From: a virus
IMG/VR virus record: IMGVR_UViG_3300043427_000679
Location: 1-23,749 of that record
Direction: 5' to 3' (one strand)
Length of the DNA stretch: 23,749 bases
Under the pieces are notes generated by a model. The model searched no databases. It saw nothing but the letters and a program-made list of their open reading frames with translations, and was not told the DNA's origin. Below are positions 7,057-23,739 of the stretch, piece by piece (within the stretch, counting starts at the first letter, position 1; each line of letters opens with the position of its first letter). Made by a program: the position numbers and the translations under genes.

Positions 7057-10000
7057 TTAGTCCACCGCTGACATATGTTCAAGAGCCCTAACCATGTCGG
7101 AGCCCGTGATAAGGTTGGAGAGGGTAGTCATGTCGAGGCCCGACACGCTTCCGTCGCCAGAGGTTACGTCCACATTGAGGTTGATTGTGCGGGTTGCGTC
7201 GGTCGAGGTAGAACTCGTGAACGCTCCGCTGACAGATGTTGCAGACTCAGAGACGCCGTTCATGGCGTCAGTGATTGCGCTAGCCTGAGCGACCATTGCG
7301 TTATATGCATCATCTGTCCTCTCGATGCCGACCGCAAGGCCGCGAACGATGTTCTCACCGATTGCGGCCATGACACGGGAAGGAGACTTGATGCCAAGTG
7401 CGTCGAGGATAGGACCCGGAATGACGTTCTTGATGAATGTCATTACCTTGTCGATAATCCAGTCCTTAGCGTCGTTGATGCCCTTCCACAGCCCAGCGAC
7501 AATGTTCTTGCCGATGCTGAGCATGATGGTGGCAGGGCTTGCAATGCCAAGGAAGTCCTTGATGCCGTCGATAATGTCGCCAACGAAGCCGGTGATTGAA
7601 GTGATAGCGCCGCCGACTGCATCGCCAATGCCCTTGACGAGCCCGCCGACAACATCACCACCGAACTTGATAATGGTGTCGATGAAGCCCTTGACGTGGG
7701 AGTAGATTGAGTCCGGGCCGTCTCCGAAGAATGCCTTGAAGACGCCATCCACGATGCCGAGTCCGGTCGAGATTACATTCTTCATGCCTTCGATGAAGCC
7801 GTTGATGATGCCGCCGACAATCTTCAAGATGCCGTCAACGATGTTCTGAATGCCCTTCCAGAAGGTGTCCCAGTCTCCGGTAAGGAGCGCGGTGAAGACA
7901 TTGAAGACGCCCTCGATAATCTGGAAGAAGCCCTCGATGACACTGGCGATTGTCTCAACGATAATCTTGACTGCGGTGCTGATGCCATTCCACATGGTTG
8001 ACCAGACCGCGAAGATTGCTTCGAGCCAGTTGCCGATGAACTCACCGATGAACGTGAGGACAGCGTTGATGATTTCCTGAATGCCATTGAAGTTGGTGTC
8101 AACGTTCAGGCCGAGGCTGTCAAGCCAGCCCATGATTGCGTTGACCACTTCCGTAATCTTGTCGCCAAGGAGGCCGAAGAACTCACCGGCTGCTGCAAGA
8201 GTATCGCCAATCTGCTCGAAGACCGGGGTGAACGTCTCTACGAGCCAGTTGACCATGGACGTGAATGCAGGCACGAGGACGTTGTTCACAAAGTCAGCGA
8301 TGCCCTGCAGGATGGGAGGAATGACCTCTTGCAACCACTGGAAGACCTGAGCGATGACCGGCCCCACGTTGGTCTGGAACCAAAGCACGATGCCGTCAAC
8401 GAAGTCGCGGAAGCCGAGGAAGTTCGTTTCATATGCTACCACGAAGGCAGCGATGGCTGCAACGATTGCCATGATTACGAGGCCGATTGGGTTAGCGGCC
8501 AGCGCAGCGCCGATGGCCCTGATGCCACCAGCAACGGCGGTCAGCGCGCCCGGAGCAGCACTAATCATGCCCGGAATACCAGCGATGCCGCTGGCGACGG
8601 TGCTAATGCCGCTGGCGACCATCTTGAAACCACGGAGGCTTTCGTTGAGCGCCTTGAACGAGTCGTTGAGGATATTCAGGCCCTTCCACGTCGCAGCGAT
8701 TGCGACGAGCGCACCAGCGACACCCTTCAATGTCTCCACGTCCTGCGGGGTCATGCGGTCGATTGCGTCAGCAAGCCAGTTGACGAAATCAGCCAACTTG
8801 CCGAGTCCCTTGTCGATGAGCCTAGTGATGTTGTCGATGAGCCCGCCGATGCCCTTTGATGTGCCGTCGATGCCGCCGAACAGACGGTCGAAGGCATCGC
8901 TCAGCGCACGGAACAGGTTGCCGAGCGCATCACGGATGCCGCCTGCGTTCTGGTAGATGCGGGTTCCGAGCAGAACGAACGCTGCGATAACTGCAGCGAT
9001 TGTTGCGAGCATCGGGAGCATGCCAGCGATGACAAGGACGATGGTGTTGACGAAGAAGATGAGCGTGCCGACTGCCAACATGATTGCGCCAGCAACTACC
9101 GCAAAGATGGTTCCGAGCGCAGCCCACTTAGCGAACTGCTTGACCATCGAAGGGTTCTTCTTTGCCCAAGCCATGACCTTGTTGAAGGACTCTAGCAGCC
9201 AGTCAATAACCGGCATAACGGCGTCAGCGATAGTCTTTGCGGTTTCCTCGAAGACAGGTGCCATTTCGTAGATAGTCGCAGACAGTTCCTCCAAGATAGG
9301 AGTCAACTTCTTCGCAATCATCTGGCCGATGTTGAGCAGGACAGGCTCAATGGTCTGCCTCAGGAGGCCCTTGATACCAGCCCACGAACCTGCTAGAATG
9401 TCCCAAGACTTCTTGAAGCCTTCGGTAGCGTCCTTCTGGTTGACACGGTAGTCAACCCACGACTTAGCGCCGTCCTTCAATGCCGAGTGCGCGATATCGA
9501 GCATTTCGGTCATGACCGGCAACTCGTTAGCCGTGGTGATGGTTGCGAGCAGGTTGGCCTTCTGCTGGTAGGTCATGTTCTTGGTGGCCTTGGCCAACTT
9601 CCAGATGTACTTCTCCATCCCAACGAAGTTGCCCTTGGAGTCGAACGCGACCTTGTTGTACCCGCCCTGAGCCTTGAACAGTTCGTTCAACTTCTCCTTA
9701 GCGGCAGCAGTCGGCTTTACAATCTTGATGTAGGTCTGACGGAGAGCACGACCAACCTGAGAGCCACGGAAGCCTGCGTCACCCAACGCTCCAAGGACCG
9801 CGACCATTGTCTCCAACGGCTCCTTAGCGTTACCAGCGACAGCACCGAACATCTTGAAGGACTCAATCAGGTTCGGGAACTCCAAGGCCGTCTTCTGCGT
9901 TGCGAAGTGCAGGAGCGAAACTACCTTTTCCGTTTCACTCATCGGCTTGTTAAACTGCTTCAAGACAGCGTAGACGCCCTTGATTGCAGTTTCATAGTTC

Positions 10001-11058
10001 GTGTTGGTCATTGCCGACAACTTCATGATTGCCGACACATTCTTCATGGACCGTTCCAAGTCATCCTGAGTCTTGATGACCTCACCGGTCGTGGACTGCC
10101 AGAAGTACAGACCCTTGGCAACTTCCTCTGCCGGGAACAGCCGCATTTCGCGCGCTACGTCCTGAACCTTCTTCTTCAACGCATCATAGATTGGCAGGGT
10201 GTTATCAAAGATGCCAGCAGCACCAGCGGCACGGTTCAAGGTGAACTCGAACTCGCCCCACTTGTCGAGCATGCCGTCGATTACACCGACAATCCTCTTG
10301 CCGAAGCCAACGAGGTCGCGGCCCATGGCCTGCAGGTGGACACCAGCACGGAACACGGCGTCCATGGCACGCTCGACACGGTTCAGCCTGTTGCTGAACT
10401 TCTCGTAGATGCCCATGAGGATGCCGGTGGACTTGCCTACCTTGCCGTTGGCGTTAGCGAGATTTGCCTGTACCTGAGCGAGGCGTGCGGCTGCGACAGC
10501 GGCACGGCTGGCAGATGCGGAAGCGTTGTTCTGCGCCGTCGTTACACGAGCGGAGGCGGCTGCAGCGTTGGACGAAGCGGTCGATGCACGAGACTGTGCT
10601 GCGCCGAGGCCGACGACTGCCGCTGCGGCCCTAGTAGCCGCCGCCTGAGCCCTAGACTCGGCATTGGCAACGCCAGCCTGTGCTGCAGCAAGGCGGGCAG
10701 AAGCCTGCTGTACGGCAAGTTCTGCGCGCTGCAGTCTGGTGGCAGATGTGGCAGAGTTTGTCTGAGCAGCGTTGAGCCGAGCCTGAGCGGCCTGCAGGTC
10801 TGTAGCGGCCTTGTCTGCGCGCGACTGTGCTGCGGTGACACGGACCTGCGCTGCTGCGGCCTGTGATGCGGCTGTCGAGGCGCGTGACTGTGCAGCCGCA
10901 AGGCGCGTCTGAGCAGTCGCTACCCTAGCGGTTGACGCGGCGAGTCTGTCCTGCGTCATCTGCACGCGAGCATTCGCGTCGTTCAACTGCTTGATTGCGC
11001 TGAGGCCGGTAACTTCTACCTTAATCCTTAGGAGGATATCGGTTGCTGCTTCGCTCAT
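7057..11058 (-). CDS. Tail tape measure protein
   Basis: At 1333 residues this is the longest gene in the window, placed after the chaperones as usual. Residues 28-195 are an unbroken alanine-rich heptad array. About 296-460 match the TP901-type tape measure core (VAREMRLFPAEEVAKGLYFW; LEFPNLIESFKMFGAVAGNA; GDAGFRGSQVGRALRQ). Hydrophobic segments at about 640-700 and 833-876 could insert into the host membrane on injection. The C-terminus has GIKSPSRVMAAIGENIVRGL, typical of the family. The protein sets tail length, here predicted near 200 nm. Its ATG overlaps the stop of a 31-codon ORF (ATGA), and its own ribosome binding site (GGTGG) is weak, so translation is probably coupled. Confidence 0.97.
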   Translation of the reverse strand: MSEAATDILLRIKVEVTGLSAIKQLNDANARVQMTQDRLAASTARVATAQTRLAAAQSRASTAASQAAAAQVRVTAAQSRADKAATDLQAAQARLNAAQTNSATSATRLQRAELAVQQASARLAAAQAGVANAESRAQAAATRAAAAVVGLGAAQSRASTASSNAAAASARVTTAQNNASASASRAAVAAARLAQVQANLANANGKVGKSTGILMGIYEKFSNRLNRVERAMDAVFRAGVHLQAMGRDLVGFGKRIVGVIDGMLDKWGEFEFTLNRAAGAAGIFDNTLPIYDALKKKVQDVAREMRLFPAEEVAKGLYFWQSTTGEVIKTQDDLERSMKNVSAIMKLSAMTNTNYETAIKGVYAVLKQFNKPMSETEKVVSLLHFATQKTALEFPNLIESFKMFGAVAGNAKEPLETMVAVLGALGDAGFRGSQVGRALRQTYIKIVKPTAAAKEKLNELFKAQGGYNKVAFDSKGNFVGMEKYIWKLAKATKNMTYQQKANLLATITTANELPVMTEMLDIAHSALKDGAKSWVDYRVNQKDATEGFKKSWDILAGSWAGIKGLLRQTIEPVLLNIGQMIAKKLTPILEELSATIYEMAPVFEETAKTIADAVMPVIDWLLESFNKVMAWAKKNPSMVKQFAKWAALGTIFAVVAGAIMLAVGTLIFFVNTIVLVIAGMLPMLATIAAVIAAFVLLGTRIYQNAGGIRDALGNLFRALSDAFDRLFGGIDGTSKGIGGLIDNITRLIDKGLGKLADFVNWLADAIDRMTPQDVETLKGVAGALVAIAATWKGLNILNDSFKALNESLRGFKMVASGISTVASGIAGIPGMISAAPGALTAVAGGIRAIGAALAANPIGLVIMAIVAAIAAFVVAYETNFLGFRDFVDGIVLWFQTNVGPVIAQVFQWLQEVIPPILQGIADFVNNVLVPAFTSMVNWLVETFTPVFEQIGDTLAAAGEFFGLLGDKITEVVNAIMGWLDSLGLNVDTNFNGIQEIINAVLTFIGEFIGNWLEAIFAVWSTMWNGISTAVKIIVETIASVIEGFFQIIEGVFNVFTALLTGDWDTFWKGIQNIVDGILKIVGGIINGFIEGMKNVISTGLGIVDGVFKAFFGDGPDSIYSHVKGFIDTIIKFGGDVVGGLVKGIGDAVGGAITSITGFVGDIIDGIKDFLGIASPATIMLSIGKNIVAGLWKGINDAKDWIIDKVMTFIKNVIPGPILDALGIKSPSRVMAAIGENIVRGLAVGIERTDDAYNAMVAQASAITDAMNGVSESATSVSGAFTSSTSTDATRTINLNVDVTSGDGSVSGLDMTTLSNLITGSDMVRALEHMSAVD
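10474..10977 (-). repeat. In-gene heptad-repeat array (24 heptads) in the tape measure gene
   Basis: Residues 28-195 of the tape measure protein can be cut into 24 consecutive heptads without a gap. Most start with Ala (AQ, AE, AS or AA), and many have Arg at position four and a small aliphatic residue at five: AQTRLAA AQSRAST, AQVRVTA AQSRADK, AQARLNA. In register with three heptads, AQSRA, SARL and SARV motifs recur. The DNA repeats are degenerate. This predicts a single long alanine coiled coil. Confidence 0.8.
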
Positions 11059-11150
11059 TCGGTGCCACCAACGGAAGAAAGGGCCGTTCCAAAGGTTGCA
11101 TCAACTGTTCCGATATCGGTATAGTTGTTGCAACTGTTGAAACGGCCCAT
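11055..11150 (-). CDS. Small 31-aa ORF between chaperones and tape measure gene
   Basis: A 31-codon frame starting MGRFNSCNNYTDIGTVDAT. AGGA lies 5 bases before its ATG, and its TGA overlaps the ATG of the tape measure gene (ATGA). Good start context and stop-start coupling support translation. The region also folds into a branched RNA structure, so the ORF may serve mainly to deliver ribosomes to the tape measure start. No family is recognised. It could be a leader peptide or a chance frame over a regulatory RNA. Confidence 0.5.
   Translation of the reverse strand: MGRFNSCNNYTDIGTVDATFGTALSSVGGTE
11081..11148 (-). promoter_or_regulatory. Cloverleaf-like RNA fold upstream of the tape measure gene
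   Basis: On the minus strand a 10-bp closing stem (GGGCCGTTTC, 11139-11148, with GGAACGGCCC, 11081-11090; one G-U pair) encloses three possible hairpins. They are AGTTG-CAA-CAACT (11123-11135), the palindrome CCGATATCGG (11110-11119) and GTTG-ATG-CAAC (11095-11105). AACAGTTG also occurs twice. The fold ends 22 bases before the tape measure start, and the closing stem begins right at the start of the 31-codon ORF. A role in translation control or mRNA processing is inferred. Confidence 0.5.
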
Positions 11151-11157
11151 GTGTTTC

Positions 11158-11795
11158 CTAACTAAGAGTCTTTGCGGCTACGGCATTCTCGCCCGAACGG
11201 AAGTGCTCGAACATGGCCATGAGCCAAACAGGTTGGTCAAGCATCCCGCCAGCCTCGGGAAGTTGCGAGAACCCTGTGACGAACTCCGTCAACTTGTTCT
11301 CGATTGTCTTTCCACGGTTCTTCTCAACCTTCATGTGGAACAGTTGAACTGTCCTGCACACGAGGTACGTGTCAAAAGCCCTAGCGATGCGGGGGTTCCG
11401 CTTACGGAGGTTATCCGTCTTGAAGCCTCCCGCATGCTGGCGCGCTAGGTCGAAGGCTACTTTCCCTCGGCGCTCGACGGGAGAAGGGACTCGAAGTGCT
11501 CAGCCAACTTGGTGTCGAGCACGAGGCCAGCCTCAGCGGACAGGCTCTCATAATCGTCGGAGGTCGGCTTGCCCTCAGTGAGGGACCAACCTACGACAAG
11601 GGTGTCAAACAGAACACGCTGGAAACCAGCGGCGTCAGCCACCGAGAGGCCGGTTCCGCCCTCTGTAACTGCGGGCATAGCCCCAGCGAGAGCATTGAAC
11701 TCGCGCTTCGTAATGTCAGCGCGAACCACGATGTAGTCAGTTTCGTCAAGAGCGATGGTCTTGACTTCCTCGGTTGCCTTGCGGAGAACGCCCAT
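11158..11795 (-). CDS. Tail assembly chaperone, -1 frameshift fusion product (GT-like)
   Basis: A -1 slip at G GGA AAG (11460-11466), just before the TAG of the upstream chaperone, moves ribosomes into a frame that is open to 11158. This adds about 100 residues starting VAFDLARQHAGGFKTDNLRK. Within the extension, VEKNRGKTIENKLTEFVTGF and PVWLMAMFEHFRSGENAVAA are visible. In lambda, gpG and gpGT made this way load the tape measure protein and recruit tube subunits. The second frame has no convincing start of its own: the first GTG is at 11361, far inside it. That also supports frameshifting. Confidence 0.9.
11457..11795 (-). CDS. Tail assembly chaperone, short form (G-like)
   Basis: A 112-residue protein, MGVLRKATEEVKTIALDETD, with YIVVRADITKREFNALAGAM, between the tail tube and tape measure genes, the standard place for the G-type chaperone. 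The ATG has AAAGGA 8 bases upstream. It ends GK-stop on the slippery heptamer GGGAAAG, so most ribosomes make this form and a minority make the longer fusion. It would coat the tape measure protein before tube assembly. The family is divergent in sequence, so the call rests on position, size and the frameshift site. Confidence 0.9.
   Translation of the reverse strand: MGVLRKATEEVKTIALDETDYIVVRADITKREFNALAGAMPAVTEGGTGLSVADAAGFQRVLFDTLVVGWSLTEGKPTSDDYESLSAEAGLVLDTKLAEHFESLLPSSAEGK
11460..11466 (-). promoter_or_regulatory. Programmed -1 ribosomal frameshift site GGGAAAG
   Basis: The minus strand reads GAG GGA AAG TAG, so the heptamer G GGA AAG lies in the correct X XXY YYZ phase right before the stop of the short chaperone. 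It is the same heptamer as in lambda G/GT. The -1 frame continues openly into the second chaperone domain. A 7-bp stem (AGCCTTC with GGGAGGCT) can form just downstream, but it sits very close to the site. Confidence 0.92.
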
Positions 11796-11822
11796 GTAAC
11801 GTATCCTTTCCTCTAGGGAATG

Positions 11823-11880
11823 GTGTCAACTAGAGTCGCCAACGATACAGATTTGTACCGTTGACGACCCTAGACGACAC
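11823..11880 (-). promoter_or_regulatory. Long perfect-wobble hairpin after the tail tube gene
   Basis: Arms 11854-11880 and 11823-11849 pair along 27 positions with one T-T mismatch, closing on a 4-base loop AATC. The inner 20 bp are unbroken. Four pairs are G-U on the minus-strand RNA; on the plus strand they would be A-C mismatches. There is no U tract after it, so it is not a classic terminator. It lies between the tail tube stop (11892) and the chaperone start (11795). A role in mRNA stability, processing or attenuation is inferred. Confidence 0.85.
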
Positions 11881-11891
11881 TGATAAACAGT

Positions 11892-12839
11892 TTACGAGAC
11901 TGTCTGCTCGCTGTTGATGAGCCTTGCCGTGAAGATTGGCGAACCAACCGGGGCGACAATCAGGGCCTCAACAGACTGCTCCAAGTAGTCACCTGCCGAG
12001 AGCGGAACAGCGACCTTGTTCCACCTGACGTTCGGGATTTGGATACGGAGCGTGGACGGGATTGCCCCGCCAGCGACCGTAGTCGAAGTCAAGTGAAGGT
12101 CTACGTCGAAGATTGTTTCACCAAGGAACCTGTCATACTCCGACGTGTCGGTGAAGTCAATCGTCAGAGACAGGGTGACCTCACGCATACCGAGCGCCAT
12201 ACGCTTCCAAGAACGAGTCTTGCGAAGTGTACCGATACGCTCCATGTTGTTGTTGATGCCGAAGGTAAACTCCTTGACCGTAGTCAAGAGAGTGCCGGAA
12301 GCGACCTTGATATCGACGCCGGAGAAGTGGAACGGAACAACGTTCGAGTAAGACGGTGTGCCCGCCGAACCCTGCTTTGCGCGGTTCGTACCTTCGAGGC
12401 CGAAGGAAGCGGTGACGATTTCGCCGTACGCTGCCTTGATTTCAAGGGTATTGACACGAACACCGGAGTAGCGCATGATGAGAACATCTGCTGCGCTGGA
12501 CTCGAAGGTGAACGTCGGTTCCTCCGAAGCCGGGGTGTATACGTGCTCGTAACCGCCACCAGCATACGCGCCGGAAGACACCGTTGCTGCAAAGGCCGAC
12601 TTCAAGAGGGAAGCGATATCCGTTGGGATAAGTTCCATTTCCATCGAGCCGGATACAACGTACGGGGCTGCCATTGCGATGTACTTGTCGCGGCTGTGCC
12701 TAATCTGGTCAGGCACGATAAAGTCGTTGGAGTCCTCGAACGAGAACGAAGATACCGGGAGCCACTTCGTCGGAGCGACGAAAGTACCATCGGTAACCTC
12801 TACTCCATAACCTACGTAGCCAAGTGCGCCAAGGCTCAT
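11892..12839 (-). CDS. Major tail tube protein
   Basis: A 315-residue protein, MSLGALGYVGYGVEVTDGTF, with the features of phage tube proteins: a GxEVTDGTFVAPTKWLPVSS start, SGSMEMELIPTDIASLLKSA, then TLEIKAAYGEIVTASFGLEG and FTFGINNNMERIGTLRKTRS. These match the tail-tube family with two stacked beta-sandwiches. It would stack as hexamers into the tail tube. The ribosome binding site AGAGGA is about 9 bases before the ATG. Placed between the tail-completion genes and the chaperones, it should be made in hundreds of copies per virion, and a long hairpin follows its stop. Confidence 0.88.
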   Translation of the reverse strand: MSLGALGYVGYGVEVTDGTFVAPTKWLPVSSFSFEDSNDFIVPDQIRHSRDKYIAMAAPYVVSGSMEMELIPTDIASLLKSAFAATVSSGAYAGGGYEHVYTPASEEPTFTFESSAADVLIMRYSGVRVNTLEIKAAYGEIVTASFGLEGTNRAKQGSAGTPSYSNVVPFHFSGVDIKVASGTLLTTVKEFTFGINNNMERIGTLRKTRSWKRMALGMREVTLSLTIDFTDTSEYDRFLGETIFDVDLHLTSTTVAGGAIPSTLRIQIPNVRWNKVAVPLSAGDYLEQSVEALIVAPVGSPIFTARLINSEQTVS

Positions 12840-14514: not shown

Positions 14515-15813
14515 CTAAGCGGAAGGTTCCGCCTGTCGTCCTCCATCTTCAATCGTGCTTTCTCGAAGTACGATGGGCGGCGACCCGGCTTCCTGCCGCC
14601 CTTGATGCTCTTGTTCCTCGATGACTGGCTCTGCCTTAGGCCGGGAGCAGACCTTCTCAATCTTGCCAACGATGGTTTCCTCGTAGGCAGACCAGTCGAA
14701 CTGCTTGACTGCCTCTAGTCCCTGCGCACGCATGCGGGCCATCTTGCGAGGGTCGCGCTTTAGCGAGAGAATGACCTTAGCGATATCCTGCGGGTTCAGG
14801 TTAGCGTAGCGTGTACCCGACTTATGGACTTCCCAGTCATAGGGTTCGATGCCGACGCCGCCACCAAGCCTTGCAACTTCCCAACCGGCACCATACTTGG
14901 TGACGGCGACCGGCGTGCCACAGGCCATGGCCTCCGCGATGGGAAGACCAAAGCCCTCAACCTGAGAAGGCAGCACGAACAGGTCGGAGGCTGCCACCAG
15001 TTCACGAAGGCCGGGAACGTCCAAATCCCCCAGTTCAGGCACGGCCTTCCCGAAGCCAGACATGAGGGGGTTGAAGATGACGCTCTGCTGAATGGCGAAC
15101 GCTGTGGCTACTTCGGGCAAGTTCCACCCTTCGAGCCAGTGGTTCTGGAAAGGAACGGTGTGCAGGTAAAGCAGAACGTCCTTCTGGTTGTACTGATGCT
15201 TTAGGATGCTGATTGCTTCGATAAGACGAGTAAGTTGCTTCCTGCGAACGTTTTGCGACACACAGACGACGACAAACTTGTCACCCCAGCCAAGCCTATC
15301 GCGCATGACTGCGCGGTCTTCGTCGGTCATCGGCGTGAACACGTCATGGTCAACGCCGTGGTAAACGAAGTCGATATCCTTTCCGATATCGCGCTTCACA
15401 ACCTCCTGCCCATACTTGGAGCAGGTCATGAACTCGATGTGCCCAAGAATGGTGCGCCAGTGCATGTTGACGATTGGCTCACCCTCGATTGGGACATACG
15501 CGAAGAACGGCATGGCCTCGGGGATTACAGCGGACATTCCGGTCACGCTTCCGGGGTCGCCGGTCATGTAGATTACGTCAGGCTCGTACTCTTTGTCTTC
15601 GAGCACCCTGATGAGCCTCATGTAGCCCATCGGGTCGTCGCTGGACGGCACGAACTGCGTGATTGGGAGGTCAGTCTCGACTGCCTCGAACTTTAGCCCC
15701 GTAACGGTGGCTACGTCCCAGCCCTTACTTAGGAACGCTCTTGCGGCGTGCTGGTTGACTCGTCCGAACCCCGTCTTCCCCAGCGGGCTGTCCCCCACCA
15801 TCAGAACTTTCAT
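14515..15813 (-). CDS. GT-B glycosyltransferase (GT4-like)
   Basis: A 432-residue protein starting MKVLMVGDSPLGKTGFGRVN, a Rossmann start with a Gly-rich acceptor-side loop. The C-terminal half has the nucleotide-sugar domain: SQNVRRKQLTRLIEAI (186-201) and the E-x7-E signature E286-E294 in VEGFGLPIAEAMACGTPVAV. These mark GT-B retaining enzymes such as family 4. The last 40 or so residues are a polar tail. The start is taken at ATG 15813, with AGGAG 7 bases upstream, not a further in-frame start at 15843. It overlaps the previous gene by 89 bases. Placed between capsid and connector genes, it may glycosylate a virion protein; donor and target are unknown. Confidence 0.92.
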   Translation of the reverse strand: MKVLMVGDSPLGKTGFGRVNQHAARAFLSKGWDVATVTGLKFEAVETDLPITQFVPSSDDPMGYMRLIRVLEDKEYEPDVIYMTGDPGSVTGMSAVIPEAMPFFAYVPIEGEPIVNMHWRTILGHIEFMTCSKYGQEVVKRDIGKDIDFVYHGVDHDVFTPMTDEDRAVMRDRLGWGDKFVVVCVSQNVRRKQLTRLIEAISILKHQYNQKDVLLYLHTVPFQNHWLEGWNLPEVATAFAIQQSVIFNPLMSGFGKAVPELGDLDVPGLRELVAASDLFVLPSQVEGFGLPIAEAMACGTPVAVTKYGAGWEVARLGGGVGIEPYDWEVHKSGTRYANLNPQDIAKVILSLKRDPRKMARMRAQGLEAVKQFDWSAYEETIVGKIEKVCSRPKAEPVIEEQEHQGRQEAGSPPIVLRESTIEDGGRQAEPSA

Positions 15814-16075
15814 CTGCGCTCTCCTGTACGGCGCTATCAGCACTCTTGGTGCTCAGGGAGGCTACGAGTTCGTCAAGGCTGATTTCGCGGCCTGTAACGG
15901 GGTCGAGGCGGTAGCCCTTCATCCATGCACGCTGCGCCCAGTGAGTGAACTCGGGGTCGCGTGGCAACTCGATTACGCCAAAATGAACGTCAACCTCGCC
16001 TTCGTAGAAGTAGAACTTCTGGTCAGGGAGTTCGTTCGGGTAGATGTGCTTTAGAAGTACCTTCTCGGCCATCAT
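15725..16075 (-). CDS. Hypothetical protein downstream of capsid gene
   Basis: A protein of about 116 residues, MMAEKVLLKHIYPNELPDQK, with a compact first 75 residues and a disordered Ser/Gly/Glu tail that overlaps the glycosyltransferase gene by 89 bases. AGGAG lies 5 bases before ATG 16075 and 8 before ATG 16072. The frame is open to GTG 16105, but that lies in a hairpin with no ribosome binding site. The text HFGVIELPRDPEFTHWAQRA suggests a small soluble domain. Placed right after the capsid gene, it may be a head accessory protein, but I do not recognise it. Confidence 0.75.
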   Translation of the reverse strand: MMAEKVLLKHIYPNELPDQKFYFYEGEVDVHFGVIELPRDPEFTHWAQRAWMKGYRLDPVTGREISLDELVASLSTKSADSAVQESADESSDGGGQPAGEDGVRTSQPARRKSVPK

Positions 16076-16094
16076 CACGGCTCCTAGTCTAGCA

Positions 16095-16122
16095 GGAGGG
16101 GTCACATTTCTGCAACCCCTCC
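16095..16122 (-). promoter_or_regulatory. Hairpin after the major capsid gene
   Basis: A perfect 8-bp stem on the minus strand (GGAGGGGT, 16115-16122, with ACCCCTCC, 16095-16102) closes a 12-base loop. It lies 15 bases after the capsid stop and before the ribosome binding site of the next gene. It has no U tract, so it is more likely a 3' stabiliser or partial terminator than a full terminator. Confidence 0.7.
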
Positions 16123-16137
16123 CGTTTTAGTTACGAC

Positions 16138-17019
16138 TTAGAGAACAAAGTTCTTCAAGTGAACCGGACGCCCTTCGAGCGCGAAGCCGAAGTAGCCCTT
16201 AATCATGAAGTCCACAGAGTCCTTGGTCTTGGCCAGTTCCTCGAATGTGAAGTCCTGATGGACGAGCAACTTAGCGTCTGCACGCTTGAAGAACAGAATG
16301 TCCGTGCTCGTCTCCCAGTGGAGGTCCGTAACAATCGGCAAGCCGTCGTACGTGAGAACACGGAAGCCCGCAGCGACCTCAACACGGTCGTTGAACTGCT
16401 GCTGAGCCTGCAGGAGGGAGTTAATCTTCCTGCGAACCGCACGCGAAGTGAGGATGATATCAACGTCACCACGGGATGCGTCGATAGCCTCGTCAATCTT
16501 TGCGAGGGTCAGGTATGCGCCGGAGGCGTCAACGACGCCAGTGCCGGAAGCGCCCCAGTTGAGCACGTCAGAGGTATCAATCTGGTGGATGATGCCCTGA
16601 ATGTCGTCGGAGCCGCCAGTTGCCGTAGCAATGTCGGTGGACAACTTCTCAACGAGAGCCTGCGAGTGTGCCTCGACTTCCATCGCCATAGCGTTGAACA
16701 ACGACCCTGCAGCACGCTGCATCGGGCCGGTGACCTCGCCACGGGTGTACAGGTAGGCAACAGACTTCTGCTGCTTGCTGTACGTGGACTGCGTAGCGGC
16801 AGGCAGAGAGCCGCCGTCCGTAGCCCAAGAAGCGGTCGGGAGGGCATCCCTACGACGAATGAAGTAGGTGTTGGTTGCCCACGGGACCTTGTTCACGACG
16901 TTATACAGGACCGGCTGCTCTGCAGCGTAGTCGCGGATAGCGCCGTCAACTACCTCAGGGATGAGGTAAGAGCCGGTGCTCGCAAGGTCAAGAGCCTTAC
17001 GAATAGTCATCTGGTCCAT
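16138..17019 (-). CDS. Major capsid protein (HK97 fold)
   Basis: A 293-residue protein, MDQMTIRKALDLASTGSYLI, with PEVVDGAIRDYAAEQPVLYN, typical of HK97-fold capsid proteins after the delta domain. GGSLPAATQSTYSKQQKSVA is an E-loop-like stretch. TYDGLPIVTDLHW and FEELAKTKDSVDFMIKGYFG are the C-terminal core. It follows portal and protease in canonical order. AAGGAAG precedes the ATG by 4 bases. It would form the T-number shell around the packaged genome. No long delta scaffold is present in this protein; the scaffold-like region sits in the upstream protease gene. Confidence 0.92.
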   Translation of the reverse strand: MDQMTIRKALDLASTGSYLIPEVVDGAIRDYAAEQPVLYNVVNKVPWATNTYFIRRRDALPTASWATDGGSLPAATQSTYSKQQKSVAYLYTRGEVTGPMQRAAGSLFNAMAMEVEAHSQALVEKLSTDIATATGGSDDIQGIIHQIDTSDVLNWGASGTGVVDASGAYLTLAKIDEAIDASRGDVDIILTSRAVRRKINSLLQAQQQFNDRVEVAAGFRVLTYDGLPIVTDLHWETSTDILFFKRADAKLLVHQDFTFEELAKTKDSVDFMIKGYFGFALEGRPVHLKNFVL

Positions 17020-22023: not shown

Positions 22024-22061
22024 GGAAGCCCCCGCCACCCGCTCAGGCGACAGAGGCTTCC
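22024..22061 (-). promoter_or_regulatory. Leader hairpin before the small terminase
   Basis: GGAAGCC (22055-22061) pairs with GGCTTCC (22024-22030) on the minus strand, and CGCC/GGCG can pair inside. The hairpin ends about 20 bases before the start codon. There is no U tract. It may shape translation or processing of the leader; function is not shown. Confidence 0.5.
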
Positions 22062-22374: not shown

Positions 22375-22448
22375 TGGCTAGCCCGCAAGGACTCGAACCT
22401 TGACCTGAGTGCTTCAAAGGCACCCGTCCTGCGTTAGACGACAGGCTA
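22375..22448 (-). tRNA. tRNA-Gln(TTG)
   Basis: Acceptor stem TAGCCTG/CGGGCTA, discriminator G and encoded CCA; anticodon loop CTTTGAA gives TTG, reading CAA. T arm AAGG-TTCGAGT-CCTT. It starts with U1-A72, as many Gln tRNAs do. It is the last tRNA of the array, with 1 base between it and the next upstream tRNA gene. Confidence 0.93.
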
Positions 22449-22449
22449 A

Positions 22450-22524
22450 TGGTGAGCCGAGAAGGACTTGAACCTTCAACCTAGGGGTTAAGAGTCCCTT
22501 ACTCTGCCGTTGAGTTACCGGCCC
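22450..22524 (-). tRNA. tRNA-Lys(CTT), first copy
   Basis: Acceptor GGGCCGG/TCGGCTC (two G-U pairs), discriminator A, CCA encoded. The anticodon loop CTCTTAA gives CTT, reading AAG; the stem has one A-C mismatch at its top. T loop TTCAAGT. A second CTT tRNA sits at the other end of the array. Confidence 0.9.
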
Positions 22525-22525
22525 T

Positions 22526-22603
22526 TGGAGAGTCAGACGAGACTCGAACTCGCATCATAGGCGGGGTAAAAGCCCGCTGGTCGCCGTTGACCTTCACTGA
22601 CCC
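22526..22603 (-). tRNA. tRNA-Lys(TTT) with unusual D arm
   Basis: Acceptor GGGTCAG/CTGACTC, CCA encoded. The anticodon stem GCGGG/CCCGC is perfect and loop CTTTTAC gives TTT, reading AAA. The D arm is GGTC-AACGGC-GACC, with four bases between acceptor and stem, and the variable loop is 7 bases. It shares this shape with the CTT tRNA at 23662-23739, so the two look like relatives. Confidence 0.88.
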
Positions 22604-22605
22604 AT

Positions 22606-22680
22606 TGGTCGCCGTGGGTGGACTCGAACCACCGGTACAGTGCTTATGAGACACTTGCCTTACCGCTTGGCTACACTGCG
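22606..22680 (-). tRNA. CAT-anticodon tRNA (Met elongator or Ile2)
   Basis: Acceptor CGCAGTG/CACGGCG, with one A-G mismatch at pair 4-69, CCA encoded, anticodon loop CTCATAA. C1-G72 pairs and the anticodon stem lacks three G-C pairs at 29-31, so it is not the initiator. Whether C34 is modified to lysidine (then Ile, AUA) cannot be told from DNA. Confidence 0.88.
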
Positions 22681-22681
22681 T

Positions 22682-22757
22682 TGGCCTCTCCGAGTGGACT
22701 CGAACCACCGACCTTGGCGTTAGGACCGCCCTGCACTGTCCGCTGTGCTACAGAGAG
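22682..22757 (-). tRNA. tRNA-Arg(CCT)
   Basis: Acceptor CTCTCTG/CGGAGAG, discriminator G, CCA encoded; anticodon loop GTCCTAA gives CCT, reading AGG. One G-A mismatch closes the anticodon stem. T loop TTCGAGT. AGG is rare in GC-rich hosts. Confidence 0.9.
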
Positions 22758-22759
22758 AT

Positions 22760-22835
22760 TGGCACGACTGACAGGACTCGAACCTGCATACCAAGCGGGT
22801 AGAAGCCGCCCGTTCATCCGTTGAACTACAGTCGT
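22760..22835 (-). tRNA. tRNA-Arg(TCT)
   Basis: Perfect acceptor ACGACTG/CAGTCGT, discriminator G, CCA encoded; D stem GTTC/GAAC; anticodon loop CTTCTAC gives TCT, reading AGA. Together with the CCT tRNA it covers both AGR arginine codons. Confidence 0.94.
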
Positions 22836-22836
22836 A

Positions 22837-22911
22837 TGGAGGTTCCTGTCAGACTCGAACTGACGATGATGTGGGTTGCAACCACACGCCTTGCCTCTTG
22901 GCTAAGGAACC
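22837..22911 (-). tRNA. tRNA-Cys(GCA)
   Basis: Perfect acceptor GGTTCCT/AGGAACC, discriminator T (U73, as usual for Cys), CCA encoded. Anticodon stem TGTGG/CCACA and loop TTGCAAC give GCA. A well-formed cloverleaf. Confidence 0.94.
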
Positions 22912-22913
22912 AT

Positions 22914-22989
22914 TGGTGCTTCCAACTAGACTCGAACTAGTTTCTACGGGTTTTCAAGCCGTCGCATAGACCGTCTCTGCCACAGAAGC
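22914..22989 (-). tRNA. tRNA-Phe(GAA)
   Basis: Acceptor GCTTCTG/TGGAAGC, discriminator A, CCA encoded; anticodon loop TTGAAAA gives GAA. One C-C mismatch at the top of the anticodon stem. A 4-base variable loop excludes the Ser(TGA) reading that a one-base shift would allow. Confidence 0.85.
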
Positions 22990-23275
22990 ACGTTTGGCGC
23001 TGCAGTGCTACTGGCTAGGCCAGTTCTTACACACTCCGGCTGACTAGACCGGGGCCGGGAGTCGAACAGAAGGTAGTCAGCCAACCTCGACCCGCATCGA
23101 CGCCTCATTTAGTTGCGGATTAGGAGAGTTCCCGCGTTGCTCCGTTTCCAGACAACCCAGTCGCCGCTAGGGCGACCCCCTTGGGCATATCGGCAGGTTT
23201 CGAGTTCCACGCACGACGTAGCCGTATCATTATGCCGTTAGGTTTTACGTCCAGACCCCGGCGAACGGACTCATA
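22990..23275 (-). other. Structured gap inside the tRNA array, no gene recognised
   Basis: The 286 bases between the Phe and Thr tRNAs contain no complete tRNA. On the minus strand there are three hairpins: ACTGGC/GCCAGT (23010-23024), GGCTGACTA/TAGTCAGCC (23038-23082) and GTCGCC/GGCGAC (23160-23176). The second encloses GTTCGACTC, a T-loop-like motif (23060-23066) whose flanks do not form a T stem and have no CCA. It could be a decayed tRNA pair or a small RNA. An 80-codon frame crossing it runs into the Thr tRNA and has no ribosome binding site. Confidence 0.5.
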
Positions 23276-23349
23276 TGGAGCACCCATTCGGACTCGAACC
23301 GAAACCAGTTGCTTACAAGACAACTGTCCTACCATTAAACGATAAGTGC
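23276..23349 (-). tRNA. tRNA-Thr(TGT)
   Basis: Acceptor GCACTTA/TGGGTGC (G-U pairs), discriminator T, CCA encoded; anticodon stem GTTGT/GCAAC, loop CTTGTAA gives TGT, reading ACA. T arm TTCGG/CCGAA perfect. Confidence 0.92.
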
Positions 23350-23350
23350 T

Positions 23351-23427
23351 TGGCGAAGCCAATGGGACTCGAACCCACTATCTCTAGCGTGACAGGCTAG
23401 TATCAATACCTCTTAGACCTTGGCTCC
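23351..23427 (-). tRNA. tRNA-Asp(GTC)
   Basis: Acceptor GGAGCCA/TGGCTTC, discriminator G (usual for Asp), CCA encoded; perfect anticodon stem CTAGC/GCTAG with loop CTGTCAC giving GTC. The D stem is short, with a G-U pair. Confidence 0.92.
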
Positions 23428-23428
23428 A

Positions 23429-23507
23429 TGGTCCTTGCTGCTGGACTCGAACCAGCGGCCTCCACATTATCAGTGTGATGCACGCATACCTACCGTGCTC
23501 AGCAAGG
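23429..23507 (-). tRNA. tRNA-Ile(GAT)
   Basis: Perfect acceptor CCTTGCT/AGCAAGG, discriminator A, CCA encoded; D stem GCAC/GTGC with an 11-base loop; anticodon loop CTGATAA gives GAT, reading ATC. T arm GCTGG/CCAGC. Confidence 0.9.
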
Positions 23508-23510
23508 ATA

Positions 23511-23579
23511 AACGCCCTTGTCGTCTCGAACGACTCCTGCGGCTACGCGCCGCCGTGCTACCGATACACTACTGGGGGC
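23511..23579 (-). pseudogene. Decayed tRNA (Thr(CGT)-like)
   Basis: It occupies one slot of the array and keeps a D arm (GTG/CAC) and a T loop (TTCGAGA with a 4-bp stem). The acceptor pairs at only four or so positions, the CCA position reads TAT, and the anticodon loop (CGCGTAG) has G instead of T at position 33. The anticodon would be CGT. It is probably not charged. Confidence 0.6.
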
Positions 23580-23581
23580 TA

Positions 23582-23660
23582 TGGTACCGTAACGGGGACT
23601 CGAACCCCGGACCTCCTACTTGGCAAGCAGGCGCACTAACCGAGACTGTGCTACTACGGT
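23582..23660 (-). tRNA. tRNA-Gly(GCC)
   Basis: Acceptor ACCGTAG/TTACGGT, discriminator A, CCA encoded; D stem GCAC/GTGC; anticodon stem CCTGC/GTAGG, loop TTGCCAA gives GCC, reading GGC. T arm CGGGG/CCCCG perfect. An A1-T72 first pair is unusual for Gly. Confidence 0.91.
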
Positions 23661-23661
23661 A

Positions 23662-23739
23662 TGGACAGCGCGACGGGACTCGAACCCGCATAATCGACTG
23701 GTTAAGGGCCAGTTGGTCGCCATTGACCTACACGCGCCG
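23662..23739 (-). tRNA. tRNA-Lys(CTT), second copy, with C33
   Basis: Acceptor CGGCGCG/CGCGCTG, CCA encoded; perfect anticodon stem ACTGG/CCAGT. The loop CCCTTAA gives CTT if C replaces the usual T33. D arm GGTC-AATGGC-GACC and a 7-base variable loop match the Lys(TTT) tRNA. The folded tRNA is clear; activity with C33 is uncertain. Confidence 0.8.

Follow-up and report, generated by a model that had tools for sequence, protein, structure and literature searches.

How a siphophage makes the products of one late operon in very unequal numbers, with a high count of capsid and tube subunits and a low one of chaperones and tape measure proteins, is the question that this locus raises. The tail tube and capsid proteins are the most abundant in a siphophage particle, and in the window (the whole stretch of DNA analysed, a 23.7-kb viral record) the late gene run has gaps longer than 20 nt only after the capsid gene, after the tail tube gene and around the chaperone gene. 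The gap after the tail tube gene holds a long hairpin, hairpin 1, and the genes around it are all on the minus strand:

11892..12839, minus strand: tail tube gene (Pfam PF18906, E 5.7e-37; PHROG 290), upstream of hairpin 1
11823..11880, minus strand: hairpin 1, a 27-position stem with a 4-nt loop and no U tract, in the gap between the tail tube and chaperone genes
11880-11854 and 11849-11823, minus strand: the two arms of hairpin 1, with the loop at 11853-11850
11808..11820, minus strand: mini-hairpin UUCC-CUAGA-GGAA, whose 3' arm contains part of the chaperone Shine-Dalgarno sequence
11457..11795, minus strand: tail assembly chaperone (G frame), the gene that follows hairpin 1; its identity is taken from its position only
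11158..11361, minus strand: second chaperone frame (GT extension, presumed to be reached by a frameshift), an open frame with annotated equivalents in Gordonia phages

The arms of hairpin 1 pair at 26 of 27 positions through 22 Watson-Crick and four G-U pairs, with no A-C and one U-U mismatch. Recomputed on the window, the coordinates, arm length, loop and pair types given in the first-pass annotation of this DNA all hold, and its placement of the hairpin after a tail tube gene is borne out by the Pfam match of the upstream gene. The hairpin begins 11 nt past the tail tube stop, within the 96 bases that separate the end of that gene (11892) from the start of the chaperone gene (11795), and it is the lowest-energy 70-nt segment of the window's coding strand. 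Its folding energy is -39.9 kcal/mol as the minus strand against -26.9 kcal/mol as the opposite strand, and the 121-nt region containing it has a z of -6.2 on the minus strand (equalled by none of 200 shuffles) and of -4.1 on the plus strand. A stable hairpin soon after a stop codon is a property of intrinsic terminators; the U run that these also have is missing from the tail that follows hairpin 1 (CAUUCCCU). An Rfam search of the window gave tRNAs as the sole matches above the gathering threshold, placing hairpin 1 in no Rfam family. The chaperone G frame has no Pfam or PHROG match and is identified by its lying between the tail tube and tape measure genes.

Relatives were taken from IMG/VR as phages with tail tube protein identity down to about 45%. 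The stretch past the tail tube stop was read in 53 phages, the window counted, with some loci being partial contigs, and no additional contigs came from scans in which other tail tubes served as single queries. Hairpin 1 is present in 33 of these 53 phages and missing from the other 20; hairpins of related phages are non-independent samples. On a tail tube tree most of the phages that lack it fall on one branch, where only L033 and L090 retain it. Its start lies 1-36 nt past the tail tube stop in the 31 hairpins scored best by the finder, and z is below -2 in 30 of the 53 stretches; L001, L023 and L116 have clear GC-rich stems although they miss the -2 limit, and L029 and L035 have strong bulged stems that an ungapped finder scores poorly or in part. 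The hairpins range from -19 to -40 kcal/mol and from 9 to 27 positions and are variable in sequence. The first-pass annotation had remarked on the missing U tract, and this is true both of the window and across the relatives, where the U run is at most two in 31 of 33 members and reaches five in L018.

The variation in sequence extends to the closest relatives. L001 and L002 are sisters of the window. Over most of the tail tube gene, read in 60-base blocks, they are about 85-98% identical to it, and over the chaperone mostly 70-95%, yet their hairpins are unrelated to that of the window (27% and 40% identity in the hairpin-bearing block). The more distant L007, whose tail tube blocks match those of the window at about 60-90%, has the 22-nt apical core of the window's hairpin (AACGGTACAAATCTGTATCGTT). 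It seems that phages replace or exchange these hairpins whole. Such swaps between sister phages would imply that selection acts on RNA stability and leaves the sequence almost free, which sequence-based annotation misses.

We also considered a mobile or repeated element and set it aside, as a scan of viral contigs with the apical 16-mer GGTACAAATCTGTATC returned 18 matches and no mobile family. Only the L007 contig among these 18 has the long intergenic hairpin seen here. In L051 and L060, which are identical in sequence, the 16-mer lies in a different context, within a 13-bp stem; the remaining matches are scattered and, by a rough estimate, about as many as expected by chance.

The four G-U and zero A-C pairs of the window are by themselves weak evidence for selection on one strand (about 1 in 16), and it is the relatives that make the strand conclusion solid. 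With a strand-neutral stem finder that handles G-U and A-C mismatches equally, the hairpin 1 stems contain 60 G-U against 14 A-C, with 23 hairpins to 3 favouring G-U (p = 4e-5). Chance stems elsewhere in the same loci contain 905 and 809 respectively, a ratio of 1.1. Part of the G-U excess could stem from C-to-T mutational bias of the non-template strand, but the control ratio is only 1.1. A separate strand count, in which the hairpins were chosen by RNA-strand energy and the choice was therefore biased, gave 58 G-U and 11 A-C. The first-pass annotation had proposed a search for covariation among relatives, and in the alignable sub-family of five sequences (the window, L007, L009, L016 and L024) this yields compensatory double changes: 95.5% of cells are paired and 10 of 18 pairs have changed on both sides, a number as high being reached in 0 of 500 shuffles, with pairing falling to 32-38% when the alignment is slid as a control. 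The sample is small and the controls are clear. Because of the G-U excess, the covariation and the retention of position while the sequence is replaced, we consider it well supported that pairing in the transcript, rather than the sequence, is under selection at hairpin 1, as had been suggested from the window's four G-U pairs.

A second, similar structure follows the gene for the other abundant protein:

16138..17019, minus strand: major capsid gene (Pfam PF17236, E 1.6e-11), upstream of the capsid hairpin
16093..16124, minus strand: capsid hairpin, after the major capsid gene, a 14-bp stem with a GAAA loop, three G-U pairs and no U tract

A hairpin is found after the capsid gene in all relatives read (26 distinct hairpins counted), mostly with 10-16 pairs. 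These contain 50 G-U against 5 A-C, and by sign 22 hairpins to 0 favour G-U. Among the 13 that can be aligned 94.8% of cells are paired and double changes affect 22 cells where shuffles give 5.8; six pairs show a double change, a count reached by 24 of 500 shuffles. We note that L168, L169 and L170 have two strong tandem hairpins past the capsid stop in place of one, and that the interval between the capsid and head-tail adaptor genes of the window contains a 442-codon open reading frame (14515-15843, minus strand) that reads like a glycosyltransferase and is a candidate for one.

A third hairpin lies at the start of the tape measure gene:

11081..11148, minus strand: hairpin 2, in the gap between the chaperone and tape measure genes, with a short U-rich tract (11080-11074) after it; terminator-like
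11055..11150, minus strand: 31-codon small open reading frame, which starts at the base of hairpin 2, crosses the hairpin and overlaps the tape measure start (ATGA)
7057..11058, minus strand: tape measure gene (PHROG 1272, E 5e-72)

The capsid hairpin, this U-tract hairpin and the Shine-Dalgarno mini-hairpin all lie beyond what the first-pass annotation had described. Each of the 30 relatives that were inspected has a strong hairpin in the gap between the chaperone and tape measure genes, even L036 and L037, in which hairpin 1 is missing. In 29 of 31 loci the 60 bases ahead of the tape measure gene contain a U run of 3-7, mostly directly at or after the stem, the stretches measured for hairpin 1 and hairpin 2 differing slightly. 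Mainly because the genomes that have U runs after hairpin 2 lack them after hairpin 1, hairpin 1 is probably not an ordinary terminator.

From the position of hairpin 1, the well-supported selection on its RNA strand, its lack of a U tract and its capsid counterpart, all of which can be read from the genomes, we infer with somewhat more confidence than doubt that it is an intercistronic protector of mRNA 3' ends, stabilising abundant late messages much as selective RNA processing and stabilisation (SRPS) does. The late transcript would be cut in the unpaired stretch past the hairpin, or decay from more distal 3' ends, and 3'-to-5' exonucleases would then be held up by the hairpin. The tail tube message, and likewise the capsid message, would outlive the downstream chaperone message, and the mini-hairpin that pairs the chaperone Shine-Dalgarno sequence may further keep chaperone output low. 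Capsid and tube subunits would as a result greatly outnumber the chaperone, as tail assembly needs. Stability is retained while length and sequence vary, as expected of an exonuclease block. The first-pass annotation had offered three functions, stabilisation of the mRNA 3' end, an RNase III site and lowered expression of the chaperones; the first of these fits best because the major capsid gene has a like hairpin, with function here inferred from sequence. Against this protective role, 20 of the 53 phages build tails without hairpin 1 and a few members have a U run (five in L018). Conserved hairpins after the two most abundantly expressed genes would offer a concrete and testable mechanism for protein imbalance in a late operon.

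The best match among known systems is SRPS as seen in the cip-cel cellulosome operon of Clostridium cellulolyticum, where, as proposed here, mostly U-less stem-loops end the genes of excess products within one operon for a multi-part assembly (PMC4423207). Of 33 stem-loops at processed intergenic sites of this bacterium, 28 have no U run. Stem-loops of this kind are common at the 3' end of strongly transcribed genes, and their folding energy correlates with the ratio between the transcripts of the flanking genes (PMC4423207). Hairpin 1 shares the usual lack of a U run, and stable stem-loops likewise end the tail tube and capsid genes inside the phage operon, the need for these products in excess being general knowledge. 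The phage system differs in being a virion operon and in being known from sequence alone, whereas cut sites and transcript ratios were measured in cip-cel. It differs too in that close relatives can have entirely different hairpins in the same place.

The main rival, which we regard as doubtful, is a partial terminator without a U tract, of the 'I-shaped' kind proposed for mycobacteria, at which some polymerases would stop past the tail tube gene so that chaperone and tape measure transcription is lowered. Mycobacterial genes are said to rely mainly on U-less terminators that lie no more than 50 bp from the stop codon (review PMC12288462), and hairpin 1 is similarly a strong U-less hairpin close past a stop codon; the I-shaped structures are proposed to end transcription, whereas in these phages U tracts go with another hairpin and the genes downstream of hairpin 1 must be transcribed. 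The title of a work cited in that review has mycobacterial polymerase needing a U tract. The closest cultured tail tube relatives of the window are mostly Gordonia phages, in keeping with a terminator of this kind, though at only about 25-30% identity, and the window's host is not known to be an actinobacterium. At the same site in the late operon of mycobacteriophage Corndog, a siphophage, past the major tail gene, a 12-bp stem followed by TTTCT was taken by the authors as a terminator (PMC4351075), and L018 too has a U run after hairpin 1; the passages on the Corndog stem describe neither a capsid counterpart nor a test of pairing across diverse phages. Against partial termination are the U runs of 3-7 that these genomes place after hairpin 2 rather than hairpin 1, together with a Ruminiclostridium stem-loop that, minus its U-rich tail, did not stop transcription (PMC9045158). 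Internal terminators in ABC importer operons of cellulolytic Clostridia resemble hairpin 1 in following a gene whose product is needed in excess, but they need the U-rich tail that hairpin 1 lacks, and hairpin 2 is closer to that type (PMC9045158). A literature search for U-less hairpins after phage capsid or tail genes found nothing beyond Corndog, most subscription papers being outside its scope.

Three further explanations are less likely. An RNase III processing site, at which the long double strand is cut and the tube and chaperone messages are separated, is suggested by the 27-position stem of the window, long enough for about two turns of near-perfect double strand, and by stems of at least 20 positions in several relatives, but many others have only 9-14 GC-rich pairs and the capsid hairpins mostly 10-16. 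A stem of 9-16 pairs is short for a two-turn RNase III substrate, and since cutting within the stem would abolish protection we think such a site unlikely. Placed between a stop and a start codon, hairpin 1 might instead be a translation insulator that blocks ribosome reinitiation from tail tube to chaperone, with the chaperone starting weakly through the Shine-Dalgarno sequence held in the mini-hairpin, an element that recurs in relatives and in Gordonia phages; this is very unlikely, in that the capsid gene has a like hairpin yet is not followed by a chaperone gene, and the pairing of the window's chaperone Shine-Dalgarno sequence is moderate (0.63) and not unusual among the window's genes. 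Finally, the swaps of whole hairpins between close relatives and the apical core found in a more distant phage suggest recombination, as would suit a DNA-level palindrome (the end of a mobile element, or a recombination or packaging site) with incidental RNA pairing. We disfavour this as highly improbable given the large preponderance of G-U over A-C on the coding strand in many unrelated hairpins and the fixed position relative to two genes. Occlusion of the Shine-Dalgarno sequence as the sole explanation was also set aside, the chaperone site being not unusually paired among the genes of the window.

The small open reading frame at hairpin 2 is shared by the window and 12 near relatives (L001, L002, L004, L005, L007, L008, L009, L010, L012, L013, L014 and L016), beginning in each at an ATG at the 5' base of the hairpin and running for 24 to 32 codons; it is absent from the near relative L017. 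In these 13 it ends 0 to 8 bases past the tape measure start, and the other two frames end in that range in 1 of 26 cases; the loci are related and the count overstates their independence, yet gap lengths and hairpin sequences vary widely. We hypothesize that a ribosome on this small frame would open hairpin 2 and finish at the tape measure start. A more tentative extension, possible rather than probable, is that the three hairpins together set part numbers in the late operon, with U-less protectors after the capsid and tail tube genes, a U-tract terminator inside a coupled small frame that the translating ribosome opens as it reaches the tape measure start, and hairpins swapped between phages as tuning cassettes.

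No similarity was found between the window DNA and cultured phages, and a search of bacterial genomes for tail tube relatives, as a prophage route to the host, returned none. The layout itself is present in culture. Gordonia phages Demosthenes, Woes and Orchid, Rhodococcus phage Reynauld and Tsukamurella phage TIN2 all have a long hairpin past the major tail gene, and a second hairpin follows the chaperone in Demosthenes, Woes, Reynauld and TIN2 but not in Orchid. A hairpin also lies past the capsid gene, or a little behind, in Demosthenes, Woes, Orchid and TIN2, the capsid gene being annotated within the compared stretch only for Woes and Orchid. In Woes (L134, 3487-3559) and TIN2 (L139, 3446-3519) a tRNA-Asn gene is situated between the major tail gene hairpin and the chaperone, and the transcript must therefore be cut there to free the tRNA, an implied cut that speaks for the proposed protection of 3' ends. 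With their matching layout, the cultured Gordonia and Tsukamurella phages make these proposals testable in the laboratory at once.

Upstream of its late genes the window also contains 12-13 tRNA genes in an array (22375-23739, minus strand). A 17-bp hairpin (22024-22061, minus strand) lies between this array and the first late gene, and the sequence that follows it, ATTCCCAAGAGGAAAG, is nearly the same Shine-Dalgarno mini-hairpin as that ahead of the chaperone gene.
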